Shown here piece after piece: positions 12,187 through 29,560 of a DNA stretch of 64,000 bases. A program made the position numbers and the translations under genes. The notes below the pieces were generated by a model. That model did not search any database, had not been told where the DNA came from, and was given only the letters and a program-made list of their open reading frames with translations. The first letter of the stretch is position 1, and the number at the start of each line of letters is the position of its first letter. The stretch is from Streptomyces sp. NBC_01571 (GTDB lineage Bacteria; Actinomycetota; Actinomycetes; Streptomycetales; Streptomycetaceae), in NCBI RefSeq assembly GCF_026339875.1, contig NZ_JAPEPZ010000001.1:1-64000 (forward strand), read 5' to 3'.

Positions 12187-13944
12187 TCAGGCGGCGGCTT
12201 CCCCGGCGGCCAGGGCGTGCAGCCGCAGGCGCAGTTCGCGGCGGGCGGGCCGGCCGCCCGGCCGGCGGGGGACGGCGTCGAGGGCCTCCAGGCGGCGGAT
12301 CTGCTCGCCGGGGCCGAGCCGGGCGTTGGCCTGTTCGGCGACGGAGTCGAGGACGTCGAGGAGACCGGGGGCATCGCCGTCGGGCGCCTCGCGCAGCACC
12401 ACGCCGGCCCAGACCAGGGCGCCGCGCGCCGGGTCGGGCCAGTCCGCGACGATGCAGTCGGCCACCCGCGGGTCCTGGCCGATGACCCGCTCCACCACGC
12501 TGGGCGCGACCAGCGCGTCGTCGCAGGTGAACACGGAGCGGTGCGCGTCCACGAGGTGCAGTCCGCCGTCCGCGTCGAGGTAGCCCGTGTCACCGGTGGC
12601 CAGCCAGCCGTCCGCGTCCCGCGGTGCCGGGCCGGGTCCGTCCGCCGGGCCGGGGCTCAGCTGCGGTCCGCGGATCTGCACCTCGCCGGTCGACCACACC
12701 GCGGCGGGCCGGGTGCTGCCGGGCAGGACGACCCGGCACTCGGTGCCCGGCAGCGGCACCCCGACCGCGCCGAGACCGGGCCGGGAGCCGGGCGGCTGGT
12801 GGTGGGAGAGCGTGAAGACCTCGGTCAGGCCGTAGCCCTGCAGAACGGACACGCGCAGCGCGTCGCGCAGCGCACGGGCCCGTTCCGGCGCCAGTACCCC
12901 GCCGCTGACATGGATGGCGCTCAGGTGCCGGCCGGGCAGGTGCGCCCGGCCCGCGGCCAGCCGGGAATCACCCGCCAGCCGGTCCAGCCGGGCGGGCAGC
13001 CCGTAGTAGTGCGTGGCCTCCGCCCGCGCTGCCTCCGCCAGCGCCCCGAAGGGGTCGGGGTCCGTGCACAGCACCTGCCGGGCTCCGGCGTGCACGGCCG
13101 AGTTGAGGTGCACGGCGTGGTACTGCGGCAGATGGTTGAGGACGACGGAGGAGGCACCGAGCCGGTGGGCCAGGGCGGTCTGGGCGGCGCCCGCGACGAG
13201 ATTGCGGTGCGTCATGCGCACACCTTTCAACCGCCCGCCGCCGTCCGGCGCGAACTGCAGGCACGCCACCGCGTCCACACCGGGCCGCGCCCTGCGTACG
13301 GACCCGGTGGCGGGCACCGCCGCCAGAGCCGCGGACAGCGCCACCACCGCGCAGGCCCCCTGCCCACCGGACACCGCAGCACCCGACACCGCAACATCCG
13401 ACACCGGGACACCGGACGGCTGGACACCGGACAGCTGGACACCGGACGGCTGACGGTCCGGCACCCAGCCGCCGGATACCGAGCCGCCGGGTGCGGGGCG
13501 CACGGGTGCGGGGCGGCCGGTGGGGTCCGTGGGGTCGGTCACCACGATGGTGTGCAGCCGGGGCAGCCGGTCCGCGAGTGCGGCGAGCAGCGCGGCCAGC
13601 GCTCCGGGTACGAAGGCGATCTCGACCCCGGCCGCCGCGCACACCTCGTGCAGCGCGGCCGGCCCCATCCGCGGATCGAGCAGGGCCAGCAGCCGGCCGC
13701 TGCGGACGGTGCCGTAGTACACGGCGGGGAAGGCGGTGTCGAGGGTGGTGGCCGCGGCGACGACGGCGTCGGCCCGCCGGACGGTGCGCCCCACGTAGCG
13801 GGCGATGCGGTCCGCCTCCCGGTCCAGGGCGGCGTACGTCACCGCGGCCCCGGCCGTGACCACGGCCGGGGCGTCGCCGTCACGGTCCGCGGCCCGCCGC
13901 AGCAGGTCGTCCAGCGGGCTCTGCGGATACCTGAGGATGGGCAC
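12187..13944 (-). CDS. AMP-dependent acyl ligase-like protein with altered catalytic motifs
   Basis: A 585-residue ANL-superfamily protein that would normally activate an acid as its adenylate and load it on CoA or an ACP. The overall order is retained: QGYGLTEVF (A5), GWLATGDTG (A7) and a C-terminal PRRPGGRPARREL (A10). The phosphate-binding loop reads APDGGGRLKG instead of TSGSTGRPKG, and the A10 lysine is replaced by Arg, so activity is doubtful. An in-frame serine/valine/proline-rich repeat (about residues 155-195) is inserted in the N-domain. It follows the PPTase gene. GTG start with CAGGAGG upstream. Confidence 0.8.
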   Translation of the reverse strand: MPILRYPQSPLDDLLRRAADRDGDAPAVVTAGAAVTYAALDREADRIARYVGRTVRRADAVVAAATTLDTAFPAVYYGTVRSGRLLALLDPRMGPAALHEVCAAAGVEIAFVPGALAALLAALADRLPRLHTIVVTDPTDPTGRPAPVRPAPGGSVSGGWVPDRQPSGVQLSGVQPSGVPVSDVAVSGAAVSGGQGACAVVALSAALAAVPATGSVRRARPGVDAVACLQFAPDGGGRLKGVRMTHRNLVAGAAQTALAHRLGASSVVLNHLPQYHAVHLNSAVHAGARQVLCTDPDPFGALAEAARAEATHYYGLPARLDRLAGDSRLAAGRAHLPGRHLSAIHVSGGVLAPERARALRDALRVSVLQGYGLTEVFTLSHHQPPGSRPGLGAVGVPLPGTECRVVLPGSTRPAAVWSTGEVQIRGPQLSPGPADGPGPAPRDADGWLATGDTGYLDADGGLHLVDAHRSVFTCDDALVAPSVVERVIGQDPRVADCIVADWPDPARGALVWAGVVLREAPDGDAPGLLDVLDSVAEQANARLGPGEQIRRLEALDAVPRRPGGRPARRELRLRLHALAAGEAAA

Positions 13945-14062
13945 GGCGGCCTCCTGGCTGCAGACAGCAGGAACAGCGGACGCCTCACGGTAGGTGTCCC
14001 GGCTCAAGAGGTCTTCGAAGCCCGCTGGAGATGCCCCCGGGCCGCCGCACCGGCCCGGGAAG

Positions 14063-15007
14063 TCACGCCGGGACCGCGGCCAGGCGGCCCCCCACCGGCC
14101 GGGGCAGCGGGAAACTGCGGAGCTCCGAGCGGCTCCAGGGGAAGCCGTAGCCGAGGTGGAGCACCGGGTCCTGGGCCGCGTCGGCGGGCACGGCGACGGC
14201 GACCAGCACGCCGGGCACCGGCTCCAGTTCGACGAACCGCCACGGGCGGGCCGTGTCGTCGGCGGGCGGCGTGAAGGCGCGTACGCCGCGTTCGTCGTCC
14301 AGGGTGAAGACGAACGCGTCGAAGGGCAGTCCCAGGCCGAGCCCGCGGGCCTTGGAGTAGGCCTCCTTGAGCGTCCACACCCGCAGTGCCCGCCGGTCGC
14401 GGTCCGGGCCCTGTGCCGCCTGCTCGACCCACTCCCGCTCCGGGGCGGCGAAGGTGCGCACGATGGTGGTGATGGCCCGCTCGTCCCGGTCCTCCAGCCG
14501 CTCCACGTCCACACCGATGCGGTGGCGGCGCACGATACCCAGCAGGCTGTAGCCGCCCGCGTGGGAGAGGTTGAAGTCCAACTGCGCTCCGCCGCGCGGC
14601 AGTTCACCCGGAGCGGGCCGCAGGAAGGGACGGCCCCGCGCGGAACGCCAGATGACCAGCTCGGCCTCGGCCAGGCCCGCCTCCAGCGCCAGCGCGCGCC
14701 GCACCAGGGTGTGCGCGAGCAGGTACTGGCGCCGGTCGCGTTCGAACAGGAAACGGCTCGCGGTCTTCTGCTCCTGCGCGTCGAGCCAGTGCGCGGCGAG
14801 CAGGCCGGCGACCGCGGGCGGCAGGCCGTCGTTGGGACACAGCCACAGCTTGACCGGCTCGTCCGTGCCCGCGTCCGCACCCGCGACGCCAACCGGAACG
14901 GACGCCGGGACCAGGGCCGGAGCCGGGGCCGGGGCCGGGAACGAGGACGAGGGTGCGACCGCGGACAGCGACGGTGACGGGGGCGGGGATGTCAGGGGTG
15001 CGGTCAC
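14063..15007 (-). CDS. Sfp-type 4'-phosphopantetheinyl transferase
   Basis: Converts apo carrier proteins to the holo form using CoA. The 314-residue protein has the Mg/CoA-binding motif GVDVE and the second signature [14 protein letters not shown], with the PLPFDAF-like continuation usual in Sfp homologues, so it looks active. About 50 N-terminal residues are a Ser/Pro/Ala-rich extension. The GTG start overlaps the stop of the KS-like gene (GTGA), so the two are translationally coupled. Likely targets are the tandem ACP two genes upstream and the discrete ACP. Confidence 0.92.
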
Positions 15008-17313
15008 CGCCGTGCTCCGTCCGTGCCGCCGTCGGGTGCGGGCACACCCGCGCCGGACGCCGTCGCGTCCGGGCCGGACTCCACCGGCCGTTCCTGAGGC
15101 CCGCGTCGAGACCGGAACTGCACCTGAGACCGGGCGTGGACCTGAGACTCGGGCTCGGGCTCGGGCTCGGGCTGAGAGTGGGGCTCAGGCTGAGAGTGGG
15201 GCTCGGGCTGGGGTTGGGGCTCGGGCTGGGGTTGGGGCTCGGACTGGGGTTGGGGCTCGGACTCGGGTTGGGGCTCGGGTTGGGGCTCGGGTTGGGGCTC
15301 GGGTTGGGGCTCGGGTTGGGGCTCGGGTTGGGGCTCGGGTTGGGGCTCGGGTTGGGGCTGGGGTTGGGGCTGGGGTTGGGGCTGGGGTTGGGGTTGCAGG
15401 ACGGTGGGGGGCAGTTCGATGCCCGCGGATCCGGGGTGCGCGGGCAGTACGGCGCAGATGTCGGTGCCGGCCAGCCACAGCCGCGCCAGCTGTTCGAGGC
15501 GGCCGCCCTGCCACAGGGCGGCCACGTAGGTACGGGTCTCCGCGAGCCCGTCGAGCAGCAGCGGGTCGCCTGCGTCGCGCAGGTCGGCGCTGTGTACGCC
15601 CGCCGGGTGCCGGCCGGGGCCGGCGGCCTCGGCGAAGGCGGCCAGCTGTGCGGCCAGGCCGGTGACCGTGTGGGCGACCACCGCCAGACGGCAGCGCAGG
15701 GCCGCGCGTCCCAGCCGCAGTTCGTGCGCGACCGCGGCGAGGTCCGCTCCGGGCGGGCCGCCGTGCGCAGCGGCGCCGGTCAGCCAGCGGGCGAACCGCG
15801 CCGCGGTGGCGGCCAGTTGCCGGGGCGTGGCGGCGGACAGCAGTACCAGTTCCGCGTCTGCGGGGCGGCGGGCGGGCCGCGCGGGGGGACGGTGGGCGGG
15901 GGGTGCCTCCTCCACGACCAGCACGGCGTCCGCGGCCGGCGGCCCGGACACGCCGACCAGGGCCCTGCGGGGCACCGTGGTGCCGTCGTCGCGGCGGGCC
16001 GGCTCCCAGCCGGCGGGCGCCGCCCGGCCGGGCCCGGGCAGCAGCGTGGCGTGGCGCAACTGCCCCACGGCACGGACCAGGGCGGCCGCCCCGGCGACCA
16101 CCCCCGGGCCGTCCCCCGTGTCACCCGCCGGGTCCGCCGTCCGGGCGCTCTCCCGCACAGCGATGCCCAGCGCCTCCAGTCCGGCCCCCGCCACCAGGCC
16201 CGCCCCCGGGCCGTCCGGACCGGGGGCGGCGGCCGGCGCCGGCTGCCGAGTGATCTGCGGCGGCGGCCCGGTGCGCGTCCCGTGCGGATCGGCGGCCGGG
16301 GCGGTCAGGCCGGCCGCAGCCAGCGCCCGGCCGACCAGCCGGGCGTGGTGCGGTACGGCTCCCAGGCGGCCCGGGTGACCGGCCGCGCCGGCGCGGATCA
16401 CCGCGTACACGCGGTCCCCGGCGGCACGGGCCGCGGCCAGCGGCTTGAGCAGCACGACCACCACTCCCCCGCCACCGTCCCCGACACCACCACCCCCACC
16501 ATCGGCATCGACACCGGCATCCGTGCCCGCACCGGTGTCGGTGTGGGTGCCGGTGTCAATGTGGGTGCCGGTGCGGGGCGGCCGAGGTGCCGGACGCGGT
16601 GGCAGCTCGACGGCGCCGGCCAGCGCCGCCTCGCACTCCCCCGCGCGCAGCGCGCCGAGTGCGAGGTGCAGCGCGGTGAGGAAGGAGGACGCGCCGGTGT
16701 CGACGCTCAGGCTGGGCCCGCGCAGGTCGAGCAGCCGCGACAGCCGCCCGGCCGGTCCGGGCCCGCCCGGCGTGTCCCCGCCCGGCGCGTTGTCTGCCGG
16801 GCCGGCGGCGAGGTAGACACCGACGCTGCGCCCTGCGTGGTCGGGGCCGGTGAGCCGGTCGGTCCGTACTCCGGCGTATCCGGCGCTCTCCAGGGTCTGC
16901 CACGCGCTGCGCGCCAGCAGGCGTTCACGGGAGTCCAGGACGGCCGCGCCGGCGGTGTCGAGGCCGAACAGGGCGAGCAGGCCGGCGTCGAACTCCCGGA
17001 TGCCGTCCGCGAATCGGTCCCCTCCCCGCGGGGACGATGCCGTGGGGGTGTGCTGTTCCAGGGCGTGGCGCCAGAAGGCGTCCAGGTCGTCGGCGTGCGG
17101 GAAACAGCCCTGCATTCCCACGACGGCGCACGGCTCGGCGCCGCCGGCACCGGGGCCGGCCGGTGGTTCACGCTCCGCCGCGGGCCGCACCGCGGGGCCG
17201 GGCCGCGGCGGTGCTCCGGCCGGCGATGCGGCGCCGCGCAGCAGGGCCACGGCGTGCTCGCGCTGCAGGGTGCCGCCTTTGAACCGCGTCAGGATCTCGC
17301 GGGTGTCCGTCAC
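15004..17313 (-). CDS. Ketosynthase-like protein lacking the catalytic triad
   Basis: Residues 60 to about 430 follow the modular ketosynthase fold ([39 protein letters not shown]). The active-site Cys of DTACSS is Ala208 (DTGASS), and the two catalytic His regions read [10 protein letters not shown] and [10 protein letters not shown] without proper HGTGT or NIGH matches. It should therefore not condense chains. A linker domain follows (about 480-600), then about 120 residues of PQPEPQ repeats. The N-terminus [13 protein letters not shown] resembles a PKS docking helix. It is 16 bp after the tandem ACP gene and coupled to the PPTase. Confidence 0.82.
15140..15400. repeat. In-frame minisatellite encoding PQ/PE repeats in the KS-like gene
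   Basis: Units of CTCGGGTTGGGG and CTGGGGTTGGGG (12 bp) are repeated about 20 times. Because the unit is a multiple of three, copy-number change lengthens or shortens a proline-rich linker without breaking the frame. The G-rich + strand could form quadruplexes. Confidence 0.9.
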
Positions 17314-17328
17314 CGTGTGCCCTTCGTG

Positions 17329-18141
17329 TCAGGCGGAACGGGCCGCCAGCAGGGCAGCCGCCTCGTCGATGCTGAGCACCTCGTCGCGCACCGCGTCCAG
17401 CAGGGCGTTCAGGTCGATCTCCACGGCCCGCGGCGGCTGCGCGGGGGCGGGGCCGGACGCGGGTGCGGGTGCGGAGCCGGACGCGGGTGCGGGGCCGGTG
17501 GTGCGGGTGTCCGTCACCTGCGCGGTGACGTGTGCGGCCATGGCCGCGAGGTCGGGGTGGTCGTAGAGCAGGTCGGTCTGCTCGCTGAGGCCGTAGGTGC
17601 GGTTGATGCCGGCCAGGAACTCCGCGGCCAGGATGGAGTCCAGTCCCAGCGCGGCGAACGGCGCGCTCACGTCGATGTCCTGCGCGGCGCAGTGCAGGAT
17701 CCCGGCGAGCTGCGTGCGCAGGGTGTCGGTGACGGTGTCCGGCCCCGCGACGGGCCACGGGCCGGCACCGCGCACCGCAGCCGCAGCCTGAGACGGGGCC
17801 TGGACCGGGTCGGGCTGCCCGTCACCGTGCCGCGGGGCGGGGCCGGTGCGCGGCAGGGGCCCGGGCGCGGCGAGTTCGGCCGCGACGTGCCGGGCCAGTG
17901 CCTCCGGGGTGGGGTGGTCGTACAGCGCGGTGGCCGCAATCTGGGTGCCGTAACGGGCGTTGAGCGCCGCGACGAACTCGAGGGACAGCATCGAGTCCAG
18001 GCCCAGCAGCCGGAAGGACTCCTGCGTGTCGAGGGACTGCGGCTCGACCCGCATCATGCCCGCCAGTACCGCGGTGAGCTCGGCGAGCACGTCGGCCGCC
18101 GGCGTCGGCGAGGCCGTGTGCGGATGAGGGGCGGAGGTCAT
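17329..18141 (-). CDS. Tandem (two-domain) acyl carrier protein
   Basis: A 270-residue protein with two complete carrier domains: the first has LGLDSMLSLEFVAALNARYG (about residues 40-75) and the second LGLDSILAAEFLAGINRTYG (about 160-190). Both phosphopantetheine serines are present. The domains are joined by a Pro/Ala-rich linker, and the C-terminal IDEAAALLAARSA helix resembles a docking element. It is first in the series tandem ACP, KS-like, PPTase, AMP-ligase-like, so the carrier may be the working platform on which neighbours assemble. ATG with GGAGACGCCCACC upstream. Confidence 0.9.
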   Translation of the reverse strand: MTSAPHPHTASPTPAADVLAELTAVLAGMMRVEPQSLDTQESFRLLGLDSMLSLEFVAALNARYGTQIAATALYDHPTPEALARHVAAELAAPGPLPRTGPAPRHGDGQPDPVQAPSQAAAAVRGAGPWPVAGPDTVTDTLRTQLAGILHCAAQDIDVSAPFAALGLDSILAAEFLAGINRTYGLSEQTDLLYDHPDLAAMAAHVTAQVTDTRTTGPAPASGSAPAPASGPAPAQPPRAVEIDLNALLDAVRDEVLSIDEAAALLAARSA

Positions 18142-18793
18142 GGTGGGCGTCTCCAAGGGTCGGATCCCGGGTGGCCGTCCTGGCATTGTGGGCGCCGCCG
18201 CCACCGCGCCACATCCCCGGCCGTGGTGATCCCGCCGAAGGCGACTGGCTCCCGGGAACCAGCCGGCGCCCAAACCCTCCGCCCAAAGAATGAGCCGCCC
18301 GCCCACCTGCCTGCCCCTGCCCGCCCACGGCAGCCGCAACGGCGGCTGCCGGCCCGCGCGCCGGTCTCCCGGCGGGCATGGGCTGCGTGCGGCGCCCGCC
18401 GGGCCCGTCCGGCAGGCGACCCGCGGTCCGGGCAGGGGAGTCGCGCCACTGGTCCCGTGGCGCCGGGGGTGCCGTCCATCCGGCCCGCGGATACGGCGCG
18501 TTCAGCCGCTTCCCGCATCCGCGGGCAGCCCGCGCACCACCCGCACCACCCACCCCGTCCGTCCGCACCATCCGCTCCGTCCGTCCGCACCATCCGGCCC
18601 GTCCGCACCGCTCGGACGGTCGGTGCGGCCGGACGGTCGGGGCGGCCCGAGGTGCCCGAGGTGCCCGAGGTGCCCGAGGTGCCCGAGGTGCCCGGGCGGC
18701 CCGAGGTGCCGAACCGCCTTGCAGTCCGGCGCAGTTGCTGCCGGCCGCCCGCACGGCGGTGGCCCGTGCCGCCGCCGCGTGGGCGGTGCGGGT
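18142..18793. other. Intergenic region with a palindrome and a 9-bp minisatellite
   Basis: No gene is supported. A near-perfect 18-bp palindrome, CTGGCTCCCGGGAACCAG (18245-18262), lies about 100 bp upstream of the tandem ACP gene and could be an operator. At 18644-18700 the unit GAGGTGCCC is repeated about six times just beyond the SARP gene 3' end. Confidence 0.5.
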
Positions 18794-19618
18794 TCAGCGG
18801 GCCCGTGCGGGCGCGGGGGGTCCCGCGCCGTCGAACGGTGCGGGCGCCGCCGCCGTCTCCGGCGCCGCCGTCTGGATGGAGTGCTGCAGCCGCCGCAGCC
18901 GCGGCGAGGGCTCCAGGCCCAGGTCGTTGACGAGGGTGGCGCGCAGCTGGTGGTAGACGCTGAGCGACTCGCTGCGCCGGCCGGAGCGGTGCAGGGCCAG
19001 CATGAACTGCGCGTGCAGGTTCTCGTGGGTGCGGTAACGGCTGGTCAGCACGGTCAGTTCGGGCAGCAGTTCACGGTGGCGGCCCAGCCGCAGATCGGCC
19101 TCGATGCGCTGGTCCAGCGCGCACAGCCGGCTCTCCTCCAGCCGCCGGGTCTCCATCGCCAGCTGCGCCCCGGCCTGCACGTCGGCGAACGCGGCCCCCG
19201 TCCACAGCCGCAGCGCCCCGGCCAGGGTGCGGGCCGCCTCGGCGAAGGCCCCCTGGTCCATGGCCCGGTAGCCCTCCCCCGCGAGCCGCTCGAACTCGCG
19301 CACGTCGCTGCTGCCGCCGCCGGAGACGAGCAGATAGCCGCCCGGCAGGGTCATCAGGACGTCCTTGGCGCCGCTGCGGCCGTGCTCGAGCGCCTGCGCG
19401 ATGAGCTCGCGCAGCTGCAGCACGTACGTCTGCAGGGTGGTACGGGCGCTGCGCGGCGGGGAGTTGCCCCACAGTTCCTCGATGAGGGCCGCGACGGGCA
19501 CCACCTGGTCGGCACGGAGCGCGAGCAGCGCCAGGACCTGCCGCGGTTTCGGCGCCGTCGGGGTGATGGACACCCCGTTCTCCCGCACTGCCAGTGCGCC
19601 CAGTACGTCGATGTCCAC
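18794..19618 (-). CDS. SARP-family pathway activator (first of three)
   Basis: A 274-residue Streptomyces antibiotic regulatory protein: OmpR-type winged helix (about residues 1-95, with TPTAPKPRQVLALLALRADQ) followed by the bacterial transcriptional activation domain to about residue 255. It is a close relative of the SARP at 31277-32143, sharing LQLRELI, EESRLCALDQRIEADLRLGR and the same untranslated leader GGGGAGACGGC before the GTG start. A double ARE-like site sits upstream. Expected to activate genes with 11-bp-spaced heptamer boxes. Confidence 0.93.
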   Translation of the reverse strand: MDIDVLGALAVRENGVSITPTAPKPRQVLALLALRADQVVPVAALIEELWGNSPPRSARTTLQTYVLQLRELIAQALEHGRSGAKDVLMTLPGGYLLVSGGGSSDVREFERLAGEGYRAMDQGAFAEAARTLAGALRLWTGAAFADVQAGAQLAMETRRLEESRLCALDQRIEADLRLGRHRELLPELTVLTSRYRTHENLHAQFMLALHRSGRRSESLSVYHQLRATLVNDLGLEPSPRLRRLQHSIQTAAPETAAAPAPFDGAGPPAPARAR

Positions 19619-19659
19619 GCCGTCTCCCCTGCTCGGTGTCCCGTGCCGCACCCCCGATT

Positions 19660-20030: not shown

Positions 20031-21623
20031 TTACTGCGGGGGGTTGCCGTGTTTGCGGGAGGGCAGGTCGGCGTGTTTGGCGTGCAGCATCGCCAGCGCG
20101 CGGATGAGGACCTCGCGGGTCTCGGCGGGGTCGATGACGTCGTCGACCAGGCCGCGCTCCGCCGCGTAGTAGGGGTGCATGAGTTCCGCCTTGTACTCCT
20201 TGACCATGCGGGCGCGCATGGCCTCGGGGTCGGCGGCGTCGGCGATCTGGCGGCGGAAGATGACGTTGGCGGCGCCCTCGGCGCCCATCACGGCGATCTC
20301 GTTGGTGGGCCACGCGTACGTGAGGTCCGCGCCGATGGACTGGGAGTCCATCACGATGTAGGCACCGCCGTACGCCTTGCGCAGGATCAGCGAGATCCTC
20401 GGCACCGTCGCGTTGCAGTACGCGTACAGGAGTTTCGCGCCGTGCCGGATGATCCCGCCGTGCTCCTGGTCCACGCCGGGCAGGAAGCCGGGCACGTCCA
20501 GCAGGGTGAGGATGGGGATGTTGAAGGCGTCGCACAGCTGCACGAACCGGGCGGCTTTTTCGGAGGCTTCGATGTCCAGGACGCCGGCGAGGGTCTGCGG
20601 CTGGTTGGCGACGATGCCCACCACCTGGCCGTCCAGGCGGGCCAGCGCGCAGATGATGTTGCGGGCCCAGCGTTCGTGGACCTCGAGGTAGTCGCCGTCG
20701 TCGACGAGTTCCTCGATGACCTTCGTCATGTCGTAGGGCCGGTTGCCGTCCGCGGGCACCAGGTCGAGGAGGATCTCGCCGCGCCGGCCGGCCGGGTCGT
20801 GGGCGGTGGTGTGCGGGGGGTTCTCGCGGTTGTTCTGCGGGAGCATCGACAGGAGGTAGCGGACCTCGGCGAGGCAGGTCTCCTCGTCGTCGTAGGCGAA
20901 GTGGGCCACGCCGCTGGTCTCGGCGTGCACGTCGGCGCCGCCGAGCCCGTTCTGGCTGATCTCCTCGCCGGTGACGGCCTTGACCACGTCCGGGCCGGTG
21001 ATGAACATCTGCGAGGTCTCACGGACCATGAACACGAAGTCGGTCAGGGCCGGCGAGTAGGCCGCGCCGCCCGCGCACGGGCCGAGCATCACCGAGATCT
21101 GCGGGATGACGCCGGAGGCCTTGGTGTTGCGCTGGAAGATGCCGCCGTAGCCGGCCAGCGCGGAGACGCCCTCCTGGATCCGGGCGCCCGCGCCGTCGTT
21201 GAGGGAGACCAGCGGCGCCCCGGCCGCGATGGCCATGTCCATGATCTTGTGGATCTTCGTGGCGTGCGCCTCGCCGAGCGCGCCGCCGAAGATACGGAAG
21301 TCGTGGGCGTAGACGAAGACCGTACGGCCCTCCACCGTGCCCCAGCCGGTGATCACACCGTCCGTGTACGGCTTCTTGGCCTCCAGGCCGAAGCCGGTCG
21401 CCCGGTGCCGGCGCAGCTGCTCGACCTCCTGGAAACTGTTCTCGTCCAGCAGCAGGGCGATGCGTTCCCGGGCGGTCAGCTTGCCCTTGGCGTGCTGGGC
21501 GGCGGTCGCCTTCTCGCTGGGGCCCAGCCGGGCCGCCTCACGGATCGCGTGCAGTTCCGCCACGCGTCCGCGGATGTCGGTCGGCCCCGGCTCGACGGGG
21601 GCGGGGGCAGTGGTCATTGCCAT
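20031..21623 (-). CDS. Acyl-CoA carboxylase beta (carboxyltransferase) subunit, AccB/PccB-like
   Basis: A 530-residue biotin-dependent carboxyltransferase that makes malonyl- or methylmalonyl-CoA for polyketide synthesis together with a biotin carboxylase (alpha) subunit encoded elsewhere. It shows both crotonase-fold halves with the glycine-rich oxyanion motifs (LNDGAGARIQEG, CAGGAAYSPA, and VDVPGF-like LLDVPGFLPG with YGGAY). Length is standard. It is followed upstream by the small epsilon subunit gene. Presence inside the cluster implies local extender supply. Substrate choice is not decided here: the residue controlling it (Asp/Ile position) I could not place with certainty. Confidence 0.93.
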   Translation of the reverse strand: MAMTTAPAPVEPGPTDIRGRVAELHAIREAARLGPSEKATAAQHAKGKLTARERIALLLDENSFQEVEQLRRHRATGFGLEAKKPYTDGVITGWGTVEGRTVFVYAHDFRIFGGALGEAHATKIHKIMDMAIAAGAPLVSLNDGAGARIQEGVSALAGYGGIFQRNTKASGVIPQISVMLGPCAGGAAYSPALTDFVFMVRETSQMFITGPDVVKAVTGEEISQNGLGGADVHAETSGVAHFAYDDEETCLAEVRYLLSMLPQNNRENPPHTTAHDPAGRRGEILLDLVPADGNRPYDMTKVIEELVDDGDYLEVHERWARNIICALARLDGQVVGIVANQPQTLAGVLDIEASEKAARFVQLCDAFNIPILTLLDVPGFLPGVDQEHGGIIRHGAKLLYAYCNATVPRISLILRKAYGGAYIVMDSQSIGADLTYAWPTNEIAVMGAEGAANVIFRRQIADAADPEAMRARMVKEYKAELMHPYYAAERGLVDDVIDPAETREVLIRALAMLHAKHADLPSRKHGNPPQ

Positions 21624-21652: not shown

Positions 21653-21850
21653 TCACTGCCAGCCGCGCGGGCCGCGGTAGGCCCGGGGCCTCCTCCACCA
21701 GCGGGAGCCGTTGACCGGCCTGCCCCGGCGGGCGGGTGCGCCGCCCGCGCTGAGCGCGAGCAGCACCACGGTGAGTGCGGCCAGTTCCTCTTCGCCGGCC
21801 CGCCCGCGTTCCACGCGCAGGACGGGCTCGTACTGGTTCGGGGTGCCCAT
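21653..21850 (-). CDS. Acyl-CoA carboxylase epsilon subunit
   Basis: A 65-residue protein matching the small epsilon subunits that stabilise actinobacterial carboxylase beta hexamers: VLRVERGRAGEEELAALT helix followed by a C-terminal WWRRPRAYRGPRGW tail. GGAGGAGGT lies right before the ATG. It precedes the beta subunit by 29 bp and shares its promoter, which carries a SARP-type box. Confidence 0.88.
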   Translation of the reverse strand: MGTPNQYEPVLRVERGRAGEEELAALTVVLLALSAGGAPARRGRPVNGSRWWRRPRAYRGPRGWQ

Positions 21851-21934: not shown

Positions 21935-22505
21935 AGAGCGCTCCACGCCGCCGCCCGCGACCACAGGACGGCCCGGCACACCCGCGCCGCGGGGCCGCGG
22001 CGGCCGGACACGGCCCGCACGCAGCAGCACAGGCCGGGACGGGACGGCCGGGGCGGGGCGGGGCGGGGCGGGGGGAAACGCTTCGGCCAGTTGCCGTGGG
22101 TGCGGGGCGGGCGGGAGGTGTCCGGCGGGGCGGGCCGGGAGCGCGGGGGCGGGGCGTGCGCTCCGGTGCGCGGCGGGTGCGGGGCGGGGCGCGGACGTGA
22201 TGTCTTGACGGCGCCCGCGGCGGTGATTACGGATGCCGCCGGCAGCGGCGCGGGCGCGTGGAAATGGCCGACGGTAACCGTCTGGAGTGCGGCGACGGCG
22301 GAATCAGGAGTTCGATTCGAGCCGCGCTGCAAGCGTCCTCCAGCGCCCCGGACAGCGGGCGTGACACCGGACTTGGAAGTCCGCTCGAGAACGGCTCCAG
22401 GAAATCGCTGGGGAGGGACGGCCGCGGCTAGCGTGAGCGGCGGCGCGGATTTCTGGCCACAAAAAGGAACGGGACAAGGAGCTCGACGACATACGGAGGA
22501 GACCG
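21935..22505. other. Divergent intergenic region upstream of the second SARP gene
   Basis: No gene is supported. It contains a GGGCG run (22050-22070), an 11-bp palindrome ACGGTAACCGT at 22271-22281 and an AT-richer stretch CCACAAAAAGGAAC near 22460 that may hold the SARP promoter. I see no ARE-like site here, unlike upstream of the other two SARP genes. Confidence 0.45.
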
Positions 22506-23327
22506 GTGAGGATTCAGGTTCTGGGTCCGTTGAGTGCCGAGGTCAACGGGGGATCCATCGTTCCGAGCGCGGGCAAGCCGCGGCAGATCCTGTCGCTGCT
22601 GGCGTTGTATCCCGGACGGGTGATGCCCGTCCCGACCCTCATGGAGGAGATCTGGGCGACGCAGCCCCCGCAGAGCGCACTGACGACCCTGCAGACCTAC
22701 ATCCTGCAGCTGCGCCGGCGGCTGGGCACCGCGATGGGGCCCGGCGCGCCGGGCGGCGCCAAGGAGGTACTGGCCACCCGGCACGGCGGCTACCTGCTGC
22801 AGATCCCGCCCGACAGCGTCGACGTGCACCAGTACGACCGGCTGACACGGGAGGGACAGACCGCGTTCGAGAGCGGCGACGACGAGGTCTCCGCCGCCCG
22901 CTTCCGCGAGGCCCTGGGACTGTGGGAGGGACCCGCCCTGGTCGACGTACGCCTGGGGCCGGTCCTGGAGATCGAGGTGGTCCGGCTGGAGGAGAGCCGG
23001 CTGGTCACCGTGGAGCGGCGCATCGACGCCGACCTGCGGCTGGGCCGGCACGCCGAACTCATCGCCGAACTCATCGAACTGACCGCCCGTCACCCCCAGC
23101 ACGAGGGGCTGCACTCGCAGGCCATGGTGGCGCTCTACCGCTCCGGCCGGCAGGCCTCCGCCCTGGAGGTCTACCGCAGACTGCGGGTCCGGCTGATCGA
23201 GGACCTGGGCGTGGAACCCTCCCCCCAGCTGCAACGGCTGCACCAGGCCGTCCTCACCGTCGACCCCCAGCTGGACGTACTGGCCGGACCGCGCCACAGC
23301 TCCACCTACGACCTGTTCACGGCCTGA
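22506..23327 (+). CDS. SARP-family pathway activator (second of three)
   Basis: A 273-residue SARP with winged-helix domain (SAGKPRQILSLLALYPGRVM) and activation domain (EESRLVTVERRIDADLRLGR). It is clearly diverged from the other two SARPs, sits on the opposite strand, and has a different leader (CGGAGGAGACCG before the GTG). It lacks the double ARE-like promoter, so it probably sits at another level of the cascade. Divergent from the carboxylase operon. Confidence 0.93.
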   Translation: MRIQVLGPLSAEVNGGSIVPSAGKPRQILSLLALYPGRVMPVPTLMEEIWATQPPQSALTTLQTYILQLRRRLGTAMGPGAPGGAKEVLATRHGGYLLQIPPDSVDVHQYDRLTREGQTAFESGDDEVSAARFREALGLWEGPALVDVRLGPVLEIEVVRLEESRLVTVERRIDADLRLGRHAELIAELIELTARHPQHEGLHSQAMVALYRSGRQASALEVYRRLRVRLIEDLGVEPSPQLQRLHQAVLTVDPQLDVLAGPRHSSTYDLFTA

Positions 23328-24192
23328 GCCCGAGCCCGAGCCGAACCCGCGAGCAGGAGGGGCGAAAGCGGGAACGGGAGCGTGGACGGAGGCGGAGGCG
23401 GGGGACGGGCGACACGGCCGCCGCCGGGCAGCCTGCGGCCCCCGACCGGCCGGTGACAGCACGACAGGAAACCGGCCCGGGCCCGCCACCCCCGCCCCTG
23501 ACCCCGGCCCCGGCCCCGGCCCCGGCGCTGGTTCGGCACCGGGTCTGGGCGGGGCGCGGGGGGCCGCCTGCATTTCCGCCCGCCACGGGCCGGGGGCCGC
23601 GCGGGGCGCGGGGCGCGGGGGCCGCGTGACTTCCCCGCCCGGTCCCGGCTCGGCCCGATGCCGGGCGGTGCCGGGACCGGGCGGTGCCGGCACCGGGCCG
23701 TTTTGGGCGCGTGCGGATGCCCCGCGGAACCGGCGCGCTCTCCCCGGCCCTTCAACTCCTCGACGGGAACGGGGTACGGGCGCATCCGTGCCGTGCGGGT
23801 CCGCCCACGGTCCCCGAACCTGCCGCAACGGCGGCGGGCAACGACGGCAGGGACGGTCCGCCCCGGCGGTGTCCCGGCAGCGCCGCGCAGCGGTGGCCGC
23901 CGGGACACCGCCGTCCGCGCCCCGCCCGGCCCGCCCGGCCCGCCCGGGGCGGCCGGGCGCGAACACACCGCCGCAGCCCCCTCCTTCACGGCCCCCTCCT
24001 TCGCGGCCCCCTCCTTCGCGGCCCCCTCCTTCGCGGGCCCCCTGCTTCGTGGACCCCGCTGCTTCGCGCGGGCGGCGGGGCCGCTGGTGCGCCCGCCCGG
24101 GCAACGCCCTGCCCCCGCCCCGGCAGCGCCCTGCGCTCACCGGACTTGCGCGCGACGCCGGCCCGGGGCCGGGTTCAAAAGGGCGGAGTTCA
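23328..24192. other. Intergenic region with a 15-bp minisatellite, no gene
   Basis: This stretch lies between the convergent second SARP and condensation-like genes. Four units of GGCCCCCTCCTTCGC occupy about 23976-24045. The + strand is C-rich here and switches to G-rich at about 24190. Long open frames show only low-complexity Pro/Arg/Ala translations. Confidence 0.55.
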
Positions 24193-24260
24193 GGGGGGCA
24201 GGGTTCAGGGGGCGGGGTTCAGGGGGCGGGGTTCAGGGGGCGGGGTTCAGGGGGCGGGGT
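24188..24260. repeat. 14-bp minisatellite overlapping the 3' end of the condensation-like gene
   Basis: About five units of GGTTCAGGGGGCGG run through the stop codon of the leftward gene. Since 14 is not a multiple of three, unit gain or loss would change the last few residues, though several units contain in-frame stops. Confidence 0.85.
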
Positions 24261-26486
24261 GAGGACGGCGCGGACGCCGCGGGCGAGGGCGGACGCGCTG
24301 GCGGCGGCATCGCCGATGCCGGTCATGACCACGGCCGGAGCGGGGCCGGCGGCATACGGCATGTGCTGGGCGAGTTCGTAGGCCGCCCGCCCGCCGGGCC
24401 CGCACCCGCACAGCACCAGCCGCCGGCCCGGCCCCCGGGCCTGGTGCAGTACGGCCTGCGGGGCGCCGGGGGCACCGTCGGCGTGCACGGCCACGATCTT
24501 CTCCGGGCCCCGGTGGCCGCGGACGAACAGGTCGTAACCGCCCCTGGGCACACCGGGGACGACGACCAGGCAGATCACGTCCGCGTGGGGGTGTCCGGGC
24601 CGCAGCACGCTCAGCGCGGGACGCGGCGGGGGCGGGGCGGGGCGGGCCATGCGCGGGACCGCGGCCCGGGCCAGCACGTCCAGCAGCTGCCCGGCGGTGG
24701 CCGCGGCATCCCGGTGTCCGGGCAGCGCGCCCAGCAGACGCACGCACTGGGCGTGCAGGGCGGCGGCGTCCTCGTCGGCCAGGCGCGCCCGGTCATAGAC
24801 GGCAGTGAGGGCCAGACCGCCCCCGGTGTCGTGGCGGGCGGTGAGGGTCAGGGGCCGGCCGGTGGCGCCGGCCGCGGTGCGCGGGCTCTGCACGTCGATG
24901 CCCTGGGCGGCGAGTTCACCGCGCAGCGCCTGCGGCAGCAGGAGCGGGCCCTCGAACCGCACCAGGGTGTCGGCGCAGGGGTCGGTGAACGTGTCGGCGA
25001 ACAGACCCGACCCCGCCCCCGACCCCGACACCGACGCAGACACGGACCCGGACACGGCTGGGGGCGGGGAGGGTGGTCTGCCGCTCCACGCGCGGATCGA
25101 CTCGGCGCCGGCCCACGGATAGGCGGCCAGGTCCAGGAGTGTGTCGCGGACCTGGTGCAGCAGGTTGGTGAGGGGTTCGTCGGGGTCGACGGTCACGGTC
25201 ATCGGCAGCGGCCCGTCCAGCGGGCCGGGGATGCCCGCGGCGCCCGGCAGGGCGATGTCCCGGCCGGACAGCTGCACCCCGAAACTCACCGGCAGCGGAC
25301 CTTGCGCGTCCGCCGCCCGGTACAGCAGCAGCGCCCACACCAGGTGCAGGGCGCTGCTCTCCGCCACGCCGCGCAGGGCCGCCCAGGAACGCAGCCGGAA
25401 GGTCTGGGCCGCCCGCAGCCGGGTGTGCAGGAGTCCGGGCCCGTGCTGCCCGGTTTCCCCGCCCGCCCGGCCCGGACGGGTCGCGGCGTGCCGCGGCGGC
25501 GCGGCCCGCGCCCACAACTGCCGTGCGGCGTCGGTGTTCTGGCCGGCCAGCCAGCGGGCGTGATCACGCAGGTCGGGGCGGCGTTCCCCGCCGGGCAGCA
25601 CACCGCCCGCGGCGTAGGCGCGGTAGAACTCCCGCAGCAGCAGGTGCACGCCCCGCTCGTCCAGCAGCGCCGGGTGGTAGGTCAGCAGCACCCGCGGGGG
25701 CGGGGCCGGCACCGCGGCCGAGGACGCCCCCCGCAGCAGGGCCAGGCGCAGCAGGCCGGGCCGGTGCAGTGCAAAACCCCGCGCCCGGTCGCGCCGCAGA
25801 AGCCGCGCCCAGGTGACGGCGGTACGGGAGTGGACGGCGATGTCGGCATCGGCGCGGGCGTGCAGCACCAGACGCGGTGAGGCGACCCAGTCGAAACAGG
25901 CCCGCAGCACCGACTCCCGGTCCACGACCGACTGCCACGCCGCGGCGAACCGGGCCACGTCCAGCGGCCCGGACCAGTCCCAGTACAACTGCTCCAGCTG
26001 ACCGTCCCCGCCACCCGCGCCGCCCGTACCGTCCCCGCCGCCGGTGCTGTCCCAACCGTCCGTACCGCCGGTGCTGTCCGTGCCGTTGGCGGGGCCGGTG
26101 TGATCAATGTGGTCGGTGTGGTCGGTGGCGCCGGCGGGGGCGAGGGCCGCGATCAGCAGGGTCTGCTGGTGTCCGGTGACCGGGAGGACCTCACCGCCCG
26201 GCGGGGGCGGGGCCAGCACGTCGGCCAGCAGTTCCGCGGGCAGCGGGACGGGGCCCGGCGCGCCGGCGGGCGGGGTCAGGCGCAGGGTGTGACGGCCGGG
26301 CCGGTGACTGTCCAGCGCGACGTCGAAGGCACGGTGGCGCTGCGCGAGGCGGGCGGCGACGCTCTCCGCGTCGGCCGGGCCCAGCGGGCCGCACAGTTCC
26401 AGCACGAGCGGGCCCCCCGGCGGGGGCGTACCCGGCTCGTGGACCACGGCAAGAACGGCGCCCCGCGGCGCGTACCGGCTGCTCAT
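24219..26486 (-). CDS. Condensation-like plus thioesterase-like protein with degenerate active sites
   Basis: The 755-residue protein has an NRPS condensation-domain fold (about residues 100-560; LYWDWSGPLDVARFAAAWQ is the typical early motif) and a C-terminal alpha/beta-hydrolase resembling a type II thioesterase (about 630-740). The condensation HHxxxDG motif reads HPALLDE (271-277), so the catalytic second His is Pro. The thioesterase GxSxG reads GCGPG, with Gly in place of Ser. Asp/Thr/Gly-rich linker repeats occupy about 120-160. It follows the second PPTase gene by 339 bp. Likely a non-catalytic or rewired partner of carrier proteins. Confidence 0.78.
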   Translation of the reverse strand: MSSRYAPRGAVLAVVHEPGTPPPGGPLVLELCGPLGPADAESVAARLAQRHRAFDVALDSHRPGRHTLRLTPPAGAPGPVPLPAELLADVLAPPPPGGEVLPVTGHQQTLLIAALAPAGATDHTDHIDHTGPANGTDSTGGTDGWDSTGGGDGTGGAGGGDGQLEQLYWDWSGPLDVARFAAAWQSVVDRESVLRACFDWVASPRLVLHARADADIAVHSRTAVTWARLLRRDRARGFALHRPGLLRLALLRGASSAAVPAPPPRVLLTYHPALLDERGVHLLLREFYRAYAAGGVLPGGERRPDLRDHARWLAGQNTDAARQLWARAAPPRHAATRPGRAGGETGQHGPGLLHTRLRAAQTFRLRSWAALRGVAESSALHLVWALLLYRAADAQGPLPVSFGVQLSGRDIALPGAAGIPGPLDGPLPMTVTVDPDEPLTNLLHQVRDTLLDLAAYPWAGAESIRAWSGRPPSPPPAVSGSVSASVSGSGAGSGLFADTFTDPCADTLVRFEGPLLLPQALRGELAAQGIDVQSPRTAAGATGRPLTLTARHDTGGGLALTAVYDRARLADEDAAALHAQCVRLLGALPGHRDAAATAGQLLDVLARAAVPRMARPAPPPPRPALSVLRPGHPHADVICLVVVPGVPRGGYDLFVRGHRGPEKIVAVHADGAPGAPQAVLHQARGPGRRLVLCGCGPGGRAAYELAQHMPYAAGPAPAVVMTGIGDAAASASALARGVRAVLTPPPEPRPLNPAP

Positions 26487-26825
26487 CCGCCCTCCCGCGA
26501 ACCAGGGACCACACCCGCGGCACACCAGCGGACCGGCCCCCCGCTCCCCCTACCGCACCCACCGCACCGGCCAGACCGGCCGGACCGGCCCCGCGCAGCC
26601 AACACACCCGGCACACCCGGCAGTACCGGCTGGGCGGGCAGTAACGGCTGGGCGGGCCGAAGGGATCGTGGGGACAGGCGGGATCGTGGTGCCCGGCCGG
26701 TATCCGGCCGGGCGGCGGCGAAAGCTGCCGCCCGGCCTGCCGCCGGCGGCACGGGGCCGCGCGGGGGCGGGCGGGGCGGTGTGCGGTGGGGTGGCTGCAC
26801 GGTGGTTCACGACGCCCGCCTCTCG
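26487..26825. other. Intergenic region, no gene
   Basis: This 339-bp stretch lies between the second PPTase gene and the condensation-like gene, both leftward. It carries short repeats (GGCTGGGCGGGC twice near 26630; CACCGGCCAGACCGGCCGGACC near 26565 in part) and no supported reading frame or clear promoter. Confidence 0.45.
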
Positions 26826-27929
26826 TCATGTCGGCTGTGCGCCGGAGCTGCCCGGCAGCGGCCAGCCTAGCGTCGCCGCAGGTGGGAGGCCTGTTTCCTC
26901 GAGCGGGTGTGGAGCGGGCCGCGAAGGGGTCTCGACCGGGAACAGCGGATGGTGGGCGGCACTGACCAGATAGCGGCCGTGGACGAGGTGGGTGGCGAGA
27001 ATCCACCGCGGCGCGCCGGCCGGTTCGTCGGCCAGGACCGTACGGCCCTGCTCGTCGCGGCTGAAGCCGAACGCGGCGAAACGGCGCCGCATGCCGTGCC
27101 CGAGTGCCTTGGTGTAGGCCTCCTTGAGCGTCCACAGGTGCAGCAGCCGCGCCGTGCGGTCGTCCTCGGGCAGCGCGGCGAGTTCGGCGGCCTCGGCGGG
27201 GGTGCACACGTAGGGGTGCAGCAGCTCGAAGGACGGCCGGCGGGTGACGGGCTCGGCGTCCACCCCGATCGGCCCGGTGCGGCTGACGGCGACCACGATC
27301 AGCTCGTCGGTGTGGGCCAGGCTCACCTCGGTGCCGGCCAGGCCGCGCAGATGGGGGCGGCCGCCGGGCCGGTAGGCCAGGTCGAGGGCGTCCGCGGGCA
27401 GTTGCAGGGCGGCGGCCGCGGTGTGTTTGAGGACCATCCGCGAGGCGGCGAAACGCAGCCGGCCGGCCGGCGCGGCCGTCTGCCGGTAGCGCGGCCAGTC
27501 ACGGCCGAGCAGGCCCCGCAGTCCCGGATCCAGCAGCGCGGCCGCCAGCCACTGCCCCCAGGTGGTGTGCACCAGGACGTGACCGCGGCCGGTGAGCTGG
27601 TCATGGACCTCCTCCCAGGGACCCTCGGGACCCGCCACGTGCAGCGGCGGCCCGAGCAGCCCCCCGCTGCTCCCCCGCCCCTGCCCGCCCCCCGGACCCA
27701 CCCGGCCCACCCGGCCCACCAGATCCGCCGGTTCCGCCAGTTCCGCCGGTTCCGGCAGACCCGGGCCGCCCGTACCCGGCCCGCCCGTGCCCGGCCCGTC
27801 CGGGGCGGGGACGTCCGGGGCGGGGACGTCCGGGGCGGGGACGTCCGGGTGGGAGGGGTGCGGGCGGGACGACGGGCGGGGGCGGGCGGGGCCGGTGCTG
27901 CCCGGGGCGGCCGGGCCGTGTCCGTTCAC
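26826..27929 (-). CDS. Second Sfp/4'-phosphopantetheinyl transferase
   Basis: A 367-residue PPTase with GVDAEPVTRR and WTLKEAYTKALGHGMRR signatures and an extended N-terminal part. The first about 75 residues are low complexity, including four PDVPA-type units encoded by a 15-bp tandem repeat. The catalytic acidic residues and Lys are in place, so it looks active. The GTG start overlaps the upstream gene stop (GTGA). Having two PPTases in one cluster, each coupled to an enzyme-like protein with damaged motifs, is unusual. Confidence 0.88.
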   Translation of the reverse strand: MNGHGPAAPGSTGPARPRPSSRPHPSHPDVPAPDVPAPDVPAPDGPGTGGPGTGGPGLPEPAELAEPADLVGRVGRVGPGGGQGRGSSGGLLGPPLHVAGPEGPWEEVHDQLTGRGHVLVHTTWGQWLAAALLDPGLRGLLGRDWPRYRQTAAPAGRLRFAASRMVLKHTAAAALQLPADALDLAYRPGGRPHLRGLAGTEVSLAHTDELIVVAVSRTGPIGVDAEPVTRRPSFELLHPYVCTPAEAAELAALPEDDRTARLLHLWTLKEAYTKALGHGMRRRFAAFGFSRDEQGRTVLADEPAGAPRWILATHLVHGRYLVSAAHHPLFPVETPSRPAPHPLEETGLPPAATLGWPLPGSSGAQPT

Positions 27930-29560
27930 CACAGCAGCCGGGTCGCGTAGATGTCGCAGTCCACGCCGTGCCGGACCCGGTCGGCGAGTTCCGCCCAGAC
28001 CTGTTCGCGCGGGTCGGCGGCCGGGCCGGGCAGCGGCACCCCGAGCCGTTCGGTGATGCCCGACAGTGCCAGCAGCGCCCAGTGCGGGCCGCCCAGGAAC
28101 AGACCGCGCCCGTCGTCGGCCGCCTCCTGGACCCCGAGCACGGCCGCGGCCAGCCACAGCAGCGCCTGACGGTCCGCCAGCGCCCGTACGGCCGGACCGT
28201 CAGGACCGTCCTGGCCCGCCGCGCGGCACGGACGGCGCAGCGCGCGCTGCTCGCTCAGCAGCCGCCGGGCCGCACCGGCCAGCGCGGCACGGTCCGGATC
28301 ACCGCCGCCCGCACGGGCGGCAGCACGCAGCAGCCCCGACAGCACCACACCGTCCCCGCCCTGCCCGCCCCCGCCCTGTTTGTCCCCGCCCCGCCCGTCC
28401 CTGTCCTGCCCGTCCCTGTCCCGCTCCTGCCGGTCCTGCCGGTTCGCGGCGGTGACGGCGGGGTCGGAGCCGGGGTGGGGGTCGGAGGCGGAGCCGGGGT
28501 GGGGGTCGGCGAGCCGGAACAGGGCCGGGAGGGCGGTGGGGTGCGGGGGGCGGGGGCTTTCGGCCAGCGCCGGCAGAGCCCGTACCAGGTGGGTCTGCCA
28601 GGACCCGGCGGCTGCCGCGTCCACGCCGGCCGCCGGGAGGTCACCGGCCAGTTTCGCCAGCATGCGGCCCTCAGGACCGGCGGGCCCGTGGCCGCACTCG
28701 GTCAGCACCAGTTCGAGCTGGGCCAGTACGTCCGCCACTACCGTCGGCACCACGTAGCCGGCCACCGCGGGCAGCAGCGCACCGGACGCGGGACGCATCG
28801 GGCGGCGCAGCGCCACGCTGGTCAGGCTCTCGCAGGCCAGCAGGTCGGCGAAGACGGTGGCGAGCACCGGCCGCCACTGCCGCAGGGCCGGCTCGCTGTG
28901 GCAGCGGCCGGCCACGATCCGCGCGGCCTGGCGCAGCACGGTACCGGTGGCGGCCAGCAGCGCGGCCGGCCCCAGCAGGGCGGCGGGCACCGGGCACGCC
29001 CGCACGGCCGATGCGCAGGCCTGTCCCAGGGCAACGTCCCGGCGCAGGACCGGCCGCAGGGCACGGACCAGCTGGTCGGCGGCCCGTATCCGGCCAAGGC
29101 CCGCCGCCGCCAGGAGCCCGGCCCGGTCCTCCCCCGCACCACCCGCACCACCCGCACCACCCGCACCACCCGCACCACCCGCACTGCCGGCGGTGCTGCC
29201 GGTGGTGCTGCCGGTGGTGCTGCCGGTGGTGCGGGTGGTGCTGCTGCCGGTGGTGGTGCTGCCGGTGGTGGTGCTGCCGGTGATACGGGTGGTGGTGAGG
29301 GCGGGCAGGCCGTAGGGGTTGGCGGCATCCCGGGGGTCGCCGAGCAGGGCGTCCAGGCGCAGTGCGGCGAGTGCCACCTCCAGGGGCGGGGGCAGTGCGG
29401 CATAGCGGTGCGCGACGCCCCGGCGGGGCCCGGGTATCACCGCACCACTGCCACTGCCACTGCCACTGCCACTGCCGCTGCCTTGGCCTTGGCCGTGGCC
29501 GGGCCGGGCGGGCGGGAGGCCGGCGGGGACGGTGCGGGGGGCGGGACGGGTGACGGCCAT
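27926..29560 (-). CDS. Acyl-CoA-dehydrogenase-like protein lacking the central FAD domain
   Basis: Parts resemble the acyl-CoA dehydrogenases found in polyketide clusters: an N-terminal GDPRDAANPYG segment, a central helical segment (LACESLTSVALRRPM, VAGYVVPTVVADVLAQLELV) and a C-terminal helical segment near ADRQALLWLAAAVLGV. The beta-barrel FAD-binding domain that should lie between the first two is missing, so only about 40 residues separate them. Several in-frame low-complexity insertions (Gly-Ala, Thr-Gly-Ser and Asp-Arg-Gly rich) are present. Redox activity is unlikely. Assignment is by pattern and tentative. GGAGG precedes the ATG at 29560. Confidence 0.55.
   Translation of the reverse strand: MAVTRPAPRTVPAGLPPARPGHGQGQGSGSGSGSGSGSGAVIPGPRRGVAHRYAALPPPLEVALAALRLDALLGDPRDAANPYGLPALTTTRITGSTTTGSTTTGSSTTRTTGSTTGSTTGSTAGSAGGAGGAGGAGGAGGAGEDRAGLLAAAGLGRIRAADQLVRALRPVLRRDVALGQACASAVRACPVPAALLGPAALLAATGTVLRQAARIVAGRCHSEPALRQWRPVLATVFADLLACESLTSVALRRPMRPASGALLPAVAGYVVPTVVADVLAQLELVLTECGHGPAGPEGRMLAKLAGDLPAAGVDAAAAGSWQTHLVRALPALAESPRPPHPTALPALFRLADPHPGSASDPHPGSDPAVTAANRQDRQERDRDGQDRDGRGGDKQGGGGQGGDGVVLSGLLRAAARAGGGDPDRAALAGAARRLLSEQRALRRPCRAAGQDGPDGPAVRALADRQALLWLAAAVLGVQEAADDGRGLFLGGPHWALLALSGITERLGVPLPGPAADPREQVWAELADRVRHGVDCDIYATRLLW
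29120..29290. repeat. In-frame CCACCCGCA and GGTGGTGCT minisatellites in the dehydrogenase-like gene
   Basis: Six 9-bp units of ACCACCCGC encode Gly-Gly-Ala on the minus strand and are followed by 15-bp GCCGGTGGTGCT-type units encoding Gly-Ser-Thr-Thr. All unit lengths are multiples of three. Confidence 0.85.

Follow-up and report, generated by a model that had tools for sequence, protein, structure and literature searches.

A conserved Streptomyces cassette in which four enzyme-like proteins lacking catalytic residues or domains accompany intact carrier proteins

Organization of the locus

The window analyzed here, bases 1-64,000 of contig 1 of the 11.5 Mb genome of Streptomyces sp. NBC_01571, carries a gene cassette encoding four enzyme-like proteins that lack the residues or the domain their families need for catalysis, together with intact carrier proteins and two phosphopantetheinyl transferases (PPTases). 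A biosynthetic branch looks converted to pseudoenzymes in this conserved cassette, and sister cassettes with intact motifs are available as controls.

The cassette genes lie on the minus strand in two sets. In the first, the order is a tandem acyl carrier protein (tACP, 17329..18141), a relative of trans-AT-type ketosynthases (the KS-like protein, 15004..17313), PPTase 1 (14063..15007) and an AMP-ligase-like protein (12187..13944); the KS-like and PPTase 1 genes have a predicted 4-base overlap. In the second, the order is a two-domain aromatase/cyclase-like protein of the SRPBCC type (29583..30560), an acyl-CoA-dehydrogenase-like (ACAD-like) protein (27926..29440), PPTase 2 (26826..27638, start uncertain) and a condensation-like protein with a dead thioesterase-like tail (24219..26405). 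The tACP has two PP-binding stretches, PPTase 1 matched the Pfam families ACPS and AASDHPPT_N, PPTase 2 was likewise recognized by Pfam and by its motifs, and the aromatase/cyclase matched PF03364 in two stretches.

Catalytic motifs of the enzyme-like proteins

The KS-like protein was identified by Pfam, which recognized a ketoacyl-synt N domain and a RhiE-like linker with no match to PF02801 at E 0.01, by alignment, and by fold matches to trans-AT KS domains. It is predicted to have the thiolase-type KS fold: the AlphaFold2 (AF2) model has a mean predicted local distance difference test (pLDDT) score of 77.5, and Foldseek matched it to 4zdn (E 4.2e-29, TMq 0.60). The Cys-His-His set of an active ketosynthase is incomplete, the active site reading DTGASS in place of the DTACSS of true ketosynthases, that is, Ala for Cys, and the HGTGT stretch being a gap in all ten aligned rows of the KS-like family. 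The homologue set comprised the best 120 of 127 matches, among which the closest were from Streptomyces. In the 121 aligned rows, the Cys column holds D in 46, A in 22, P in 19, E in 13, C in 8, G in 5, a gap in 4 and single letters in four; the eight Cys-bearing rows (P0112-P0114, P0116-P0120) are larger polyketide synthases (PKSs). This column is poorly conserved (conservation rank 0.86), with many near-invariant columns around it.

The AMP-ligase-like protein matched PF00501 and was further characterized by motif tables and a tree. The phosphate loop (P-loop) and the A10 Lys of an active ANL adenylate-forming enzyme are both lost, the loop reading APDGGGRLKG and Arg standing in place of the Lys (GGR), with GYGLTE and TGD retained. 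The homologue searches returned 127, 389 and 364 matches, of which the best 120 were used in each case; at the A10 position, 94 of the 120 ligase homologues have K and the window protein has R. Most P-loop columns (rank mostly 0.56-0.94, two at 0.38 and 0.44) and the A10 Lys column (0.86) are poorly conserved, and many near-invariant columns surround them.

The condensation-like protein, a member of PF00668 by Pfam as well as by its motifs and tree, has HPALLDE for the HHxxxDG of an active nonribosomal peptide synthetase (NRPS) condensation domain, and GCGPG in its thioesterase-like tail. Among the best 120 homologues, 118 have E in the Gly column of HHxxxDG and 118 have G in the thioesterase Ser column; most rows read HRALLDE. 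The altered site is fixed (A 100%, D 100% and E 99%; in GxGP, G 98%, G 98% and P 96%). The A, D and E columns rank 0.02-0.08 over 118 rows, and both GxGP Gly residues are likewise among the most conserved.

No credible Pfam match was found for the ACAD-like protein. When it was aligned with its S. katrae, S. roseus and NBC_00503 relatives, it was found to lack the middle domain, which in ACADs binds FAD; the N, middle and C domains with FAD that define an acyl-CoA dehydrogenase are thus incomplete. Pfam recognized ACAD domains in the S. katrae and NBC_00503 relatives, some below its own cut-off, and found the middle domain in both of the full-length relatives, out of three, on which it was run. 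The claim of domain loss rests on the alignment because the predicted structure (mean pLDDT 61.7) and the ACAD fold matches (E 0.09 or worse) are weak. A profile of the protein against PDB sequences gave one match, a transcriptional regulator at E 0.023. The S. roseus ACAD protein (L115 1818-3461) diverges from its relatives near the C-terminus, possibly through a frameshift.

The carrier proteins and their modifying enzymes have kept their motifs. Both DS serines of the tACP are present, as are GVDxE and WTLKEAY in both PPTases (GVDVE and WTLKEA in PPTase 1), so that presentation of a chain bound to a carrier is still possible. The initial annotation had described four enzyme-like proteins without needed residues or domains beside intact carriers and two PPTases, and the motif, Pfam and alignment analyses bear out both points.

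Relatives and co-occurrence of the losses

The comparison set consisted of one scan of genome contigs and 28 stretches from individual strains. Twelve loci were grouped as clade B (the window, S. olivochromogenes, G-G2, NBC_00536, col6, 2131.1, NBC_00891, HUAS 15-9, NBC_01266, NBC_00557, NRRL B-1140 and NBC_00342) and nine as the sister clade A; the counts exclude seven loci that were partial or mixed. Trees were built with FastTree and rooted at the midpoint, and their rows, like the codon sets below, are partly stop-to-stop reading frames.

In clade B, the P-loop, HHxxxDG, the thioesterase Ser and the ACAD middle domain are lost, as is the A10 Lys in most rows. The tree of 89 ligases contains 55 with the P-loop and 34 without it, and 33 of these 34 fall in one clade (Shimodaira-Hasegawa (SH) support 100), the stray row (P0352) lying elsewhere with its Lys kept. 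Among the 34, the A10 Lys is lost in 26, unreadable in 4 and kept in 4. Likewise, 52 of 62 condensation proteins fall in a dead clade (SH 100), none of the 52 having HHxxxDG or the thioesterase Ser. The ACAD middle domain is absent from all 12 clade-B loci and present in all three clade-A loci having the gene. The aromatase, ACAD-like, PPTase 2 and condensation-like genes occur together in 12/12 clade-B loci. Both tACP serines are kept in the 11 clade-B loci that have a tACP, and the motifs of the two PPTases are kept in 22/22 and 15/15 rows. The KS-like Cys is absent in both clades.

The genetic surroundings of the clades also differ. An aromatic KS-alpha was found in six of nine clade-A loci and in none of the 12 clade-B loci within the stretches examined. 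Four loci combine an aromatic type II PKS core with a ligase that can be read (S. katrae, S. roseus, NBC_00503 and NBC_00523). In all four the P-loop and A10 Lys are intact, and three of them have an ACAD with the middle domain.

The cassette is present in many Streptomyces, and 11 of 12 examined plasmid records with cassette genes are linear. Tap/Tpg-like telomere proteins adjoin it in col6 (L107 13030-16047), 2131.1 (L120 12861-15698) and NBC_00891 (L124 10357-13137); this label is our reading of the col6 sequences, and the NBC_00891 record says HTH and XRE regulators. Within a plasmid collection, 25 records match the condensation query at a coverage of at least 80%; 21 of these also contain an ACAD-like match that is labelled a hypothetical protein (in one it overlaps an SRPBCC gene) and four do not. 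In the remaining 24 of 45 ACAD-like plasmid records, the matches are mainly annotated as acyl-CoA dehydrogenase. These counts come from match listings, the domain loss having been checked in the aligned loci. In three plasmid clusters (L125, L132 and L134), a mevalonate pathway is adjoined by an aromatase and by a condensation protein some 1,100 residues long.

Selection and open reading frames

Codon models were employed to estimate omega in the two clades. The values for clades B and A were 0.245 and 0.286 for the ligase, 0.233 and 0.240 for the condensation protein, and 0.269 and 0.207 for the KS-like protein; these runs were made without kappa, the clade-A sets are small, with 4 rows and 156 codons for the ligase, 3 rows for the ACAD-like protein and 6 for the condensation protein, most of the last without HHxxxDG, and the clade-B condensation set includes the frameshifted HUAS 15-9 gene. 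Third-position differences exceeded first- and second-position differences in all four dead genes and in all four clade-B pairs (1.6-6.0 fold). In col6 and 2131.1, even the ligase that is shortened at its C-terminus gave a ratio (p3/p12) of 4.5. The clade-A pair CB02400 and S. europaeiscabiei gave only 1.18 for the condensation gene. In a separate set of pairwise ratios, in which the dead genes gave 0.14-0.55, the window pair's PKS genes gave 0.19-0.33. When the window was compared with S. olivochromogenes, 26/31 internal indels in the four dead genes were multiples of three, and for col6 against 2131.1 the count was 6/6; the figures for all aligned genes were 29/40 and 7/7, respectively. In-frame low-complexity expansions (QPQPEP, GSGSGS, TTGSTTGS and GGAGGA) occur within the dead enzymes, at 15004-17313 and 24219-29614, and are shorter or absent in most aligned relatives.

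Simple recent decay is unlikely because clade-B omega lies at 0.23-0.34 and not close to 1, in agreement with the initial annotation, which had argued against random decay and asked whether the same substitutions co-occur in syntenic clusters. They do so clade-wide in the ligase and condensation trees, and the domain loss is found in 12/12 loci. It had further held that intact homologues, with relaxed selection in this lineage only, would point to decay. Intact homologues do exist; however, the lost state is shared by the whole clade and omega is well below 1, and decay of this lineage alone was rejected.

The long open frames had also been taken as a sign of selection. In this stretch of 76.5% GC, 14 stop-free stretches of at least 500 codons were found, versus a mean of 1.4 (maximum 4) in 50 composition shuffles, and the openness of the frames therefore exceeds what composition gives. 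The argument is weak for single genes. The longest stop-free stretch in the shuffles averaged 590 codons (maximum 1044), and the longest real one, of 1358 codons, fits a plus-strand reading frame antisense to the KS-like and ACP genes. Since shuffles and an antisense frame can also be long, the notion that an open frame proves selection on a given gene was rejected, and the codon tests carry the point.

Neighboring genes and features

Regulatory genes surround the cassette. SARP regulators are encoded at 18794..19618 (minus strand; BTAD and Trans_reg_C), 22530..23327 (plus strand) and 31277..32113 (minus strand), the latter two assigned by homology to cassette SARPs and to other SARPs, respectively. 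A TetR-family, ScbR-like regulator (32936..33679, minus strand; PF00440), whose relatives are annotated as ScbR family here, and a ScbR-family autoregulator receptor (34148..34837, minus strand; NF041196) are also present, and a ScbA/AfsA gamma-butyrolactone synthase lies at 39020..40150 on the plus strand (NF041195, PF03756). The remaining genes are on the minus strand: the beta subunit of an acyl-CoA carboxylase (20031..21623; PF01039), its epsilon subunit (21653..21850), assigned from position and the annotation of relatives, a cytochrome P450 (36457..38244, with PF00067 on the 36457-37539 part), and the innermost genes of a highly-reducing-like type II PKS (2..2520; ketoreductase, ACP and malonyltransferase), assigned from family matches and the annotation of relatives. 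The KS genes of this PKS lie past the window edge, on contig 3.

Positions 1-40235 are part of a near-identical repeat (99.99% over 20-kb pieces), which recurs where contig 3 ends and where contig 2 starts. We read the repeat up to about 40,235 as the inner end of the terminal inverted repeat of a linear chromosome, and contig 3 as the collapsed repeat. Within 30000-40235, the plus strand is rich in C and A, a bias that is uneven from 30 kb onward and strong from 35 kb, GC skew reaching -0.76 and AT skew +0.84 in 500-base segments. On contig 1 and contig 2 alike, the skew is near normal again soon after the repeat ends, and the corresponding S. katrae stretch has no such strand skew. An IS607-family element at 8697-10726 encodes a TnpB RNA-guided endonuclease and an IS607 transposase; these had no match in the other compared stretches, and the flanking genes are adjacent in S. 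olivochromogenes.

Interpretation and alternatives

On the present analysis, the dead proteins have about an even chance of being non-catalytic carrier-protein-binding partners, an explanation that stands ahead of its rivals. It is favored because the carriers and PPTases keep their motifs, the KS fold is supported, and CLF (KS-beta) and the NRPS X-domain offer precedents. The kin of the cassette adjoin aromatic type II polyketide cores, where they probably make or hand over a starter unit and release the product. In clade B, with no aromatic core found, the cassette adjoins other pathways, here the highly-reducing-like type II PKS; the ligase, the condensation/thioesterase protein and the dehydrogenase would there have lost their active sites, the KS-like protein being Cys-less in both clades. 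The dead proteins are still selected together with the tACP, the two PPTases and the aromatase/cyclase, and may hold or hand on the ACP-bound chain for the remaining active enzymes in the manner of CLF or the X-domain. We infer the direction of change, the binding to the ACP and the scaffold or gating role. The fuller account, in which an activation, desaturation and release branch was turned into pseudoenzymes assembled on the phosphopantetheinylated tACP, forming a non-catalytic scaffold or gate that is transferable and has been put to use again next to unrelated Streptomyces pathways, is tentative and somewhat less probable than carrier binding as such. The pseudoenzyme assembly that had been proposed at the outset is thus supported in part, namely in the co-occurring losses and in the case against simple decay, and the scaffold or gate is our inference.

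Several observations weigh against the carrier-binding explanation. Clade B has gaps, the KS-like gene being missing in 2 of the 12 loci, the tACP in 1, PPTase 1 in 1 and the ligase in 4, and no type II PKS was found in the 34-kb stretches of NBC_01266, NBC_00557 and NBC_00342. The condensation gene of HUAS 15-9 is split over two frames (L123 19812-21997), by a frameshift or a sequencing error, and the first tACP serine of S. brasiliensis is replaced by Ala. Clade B is less constrained than clade A in the ACAD-like protein (omega 0.338 versus 0.151), the aromatase (0.233 versus 0.112) and the tACP (0.288 versus 0.186), and the dead genes have pairwise ratios of 0.14-0.55, above the 0.04-0.15 obtained for SARP2 and AccB in those two pairs. 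In NBC_00523 (L130), a dead condensation protein of clade B occurs together with an aromatic KS-alpha/CLF and a ligase whose motifs are intact, three clade-B ligase rows still have the A10 Lys, and 8 of the 10 clade-A condensation rows likewise lack HHxxxDG. The holders of HHxxxDG among these ten are S. katrae and one of the two S. roseus proteins. As 8 of the 10 have kept the thioesterase Ser, this gradient across the clades suggests stepwise loss. The losses are not all of one age, because the KS-like protein is Cys-less in both clades, most clade-A condensation proteins lack HHxxxDG, NBC_00523 is an exception and some members have eroded further.

The possibility was considered that the cassette is a relic under partial constraint, the old branch decaying slowly and its frames being kept through translational coupling to needed PPTases and regulators. 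The overlap of the KS-like and PPTase 1 genes fits this explanation, as do the raised clade-B omega of several genes, the members that are missing or broken in several loci, the absence of the C-terminal part of the ligase in four strains (col6, 2131.1, NBC_00891 and S. olivochromogenes), and two KS-like proteins (P0078 and P0082) that are shorter at the N-terminus. However, coupling guards frames and not residues, yet omega is low and a third-position excess is seen in all four dead genes; the dead condensation site is itself strongly conserved, and the short ligase of col6 and 2131.1 retains its third-position excess. We regard a relic as unlikely, if the most serious of the rivals.

That some members catalyze through other residues, the fixed HxALLDE/CGxGP site, for example, serving as a new active site of a divergent enzyme, would account for the A, D, E and two Gly residues being among the most conserved columns of the condensation protein. 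This is improbable, given that conservation is poor in the Cys column of the KS-like protein and in the A10 Lys column and most P-loop columns of the ligase, and that the ACAD-like protein has no middle domain. Least probable is a regulatory role, such as the sensing of acyl-ACP or butyrolactone precursors for the co-travelling SARP/ScbR circuit. SARP, ScbR and usually ScbA genes do adjoin the cassette beside very different pathways, but such sets are also found where no KS-like gene is annotated, and no DNA-binding domain was found in the dead proteins in the Pfam scan.

Comparison with known systems

The adjoining PKS is presumably akin to the highly reducing type II PKSs, ishigamide-like or cispentacin-like. 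It has separate KS, CLF-like, ketoreductase, dehydratase, ACP and MAT genes beside the cassette. The four dead proteins are not known to be part of highly reducing type II PKS systems.

The CLF of type II PKSs is a Cys-less protein of the KS fold retained because of its partner, and the KS-like protein also has a KS fold without the Cys. It differs from CLF in that its best fold matches are the trans-AT KS domains of isomigrastatin MgsF/MgsE and of bacillaene (TM ~0.6), the HGTGT stretch is absent, and its neighbors are the tACP and PPTase 1 instead of an adjacent KS-alpha partner.

The X-domain of glycopeptide NRPSs, as described in passages of PMC11546977, has a condensation fold with HRxxxDD for HHxxxDG and recruits P450s. 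The condensation-like protein resembles it, at the level of sequence, in its PF00668 match and altered motif, HPALLDE, and differs in being a stand-alone gene with a dead thioesterase-like tail in a PKS context. The window does carry a P450 gene.

No account of the cassette or its product was found in the passages available from the literature searched, which included PMC12093942, PMC10409956 and PMC11546977 and mostly lay outside subscription journals. The lavencidin and auricin clusters were considered as its identity, and the published passages gave no support for a match.

In gene content, the cassette resembles the sister cassettes that S. katrae, S. roseus and NBC_00503 carry beside aromatic type II PKS cores, which have the same gene families, SARPs and ScbA. 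These differ in having KS-alpha, CLF and ACP genes, and in their intact ligase P-loop, A10 Lys and ACAD middle domain, and thus provide natural controls. For genome mining, labels such as ligase, condensation domain and ketosynthase here predict chemistry that the proteins probably cannot do. CLF and the X-domain are known examples of single pseudoenzymes, but a cassette with several dead, selected partners from one branch would be a test case for non-catalytic roles in assembly lines.

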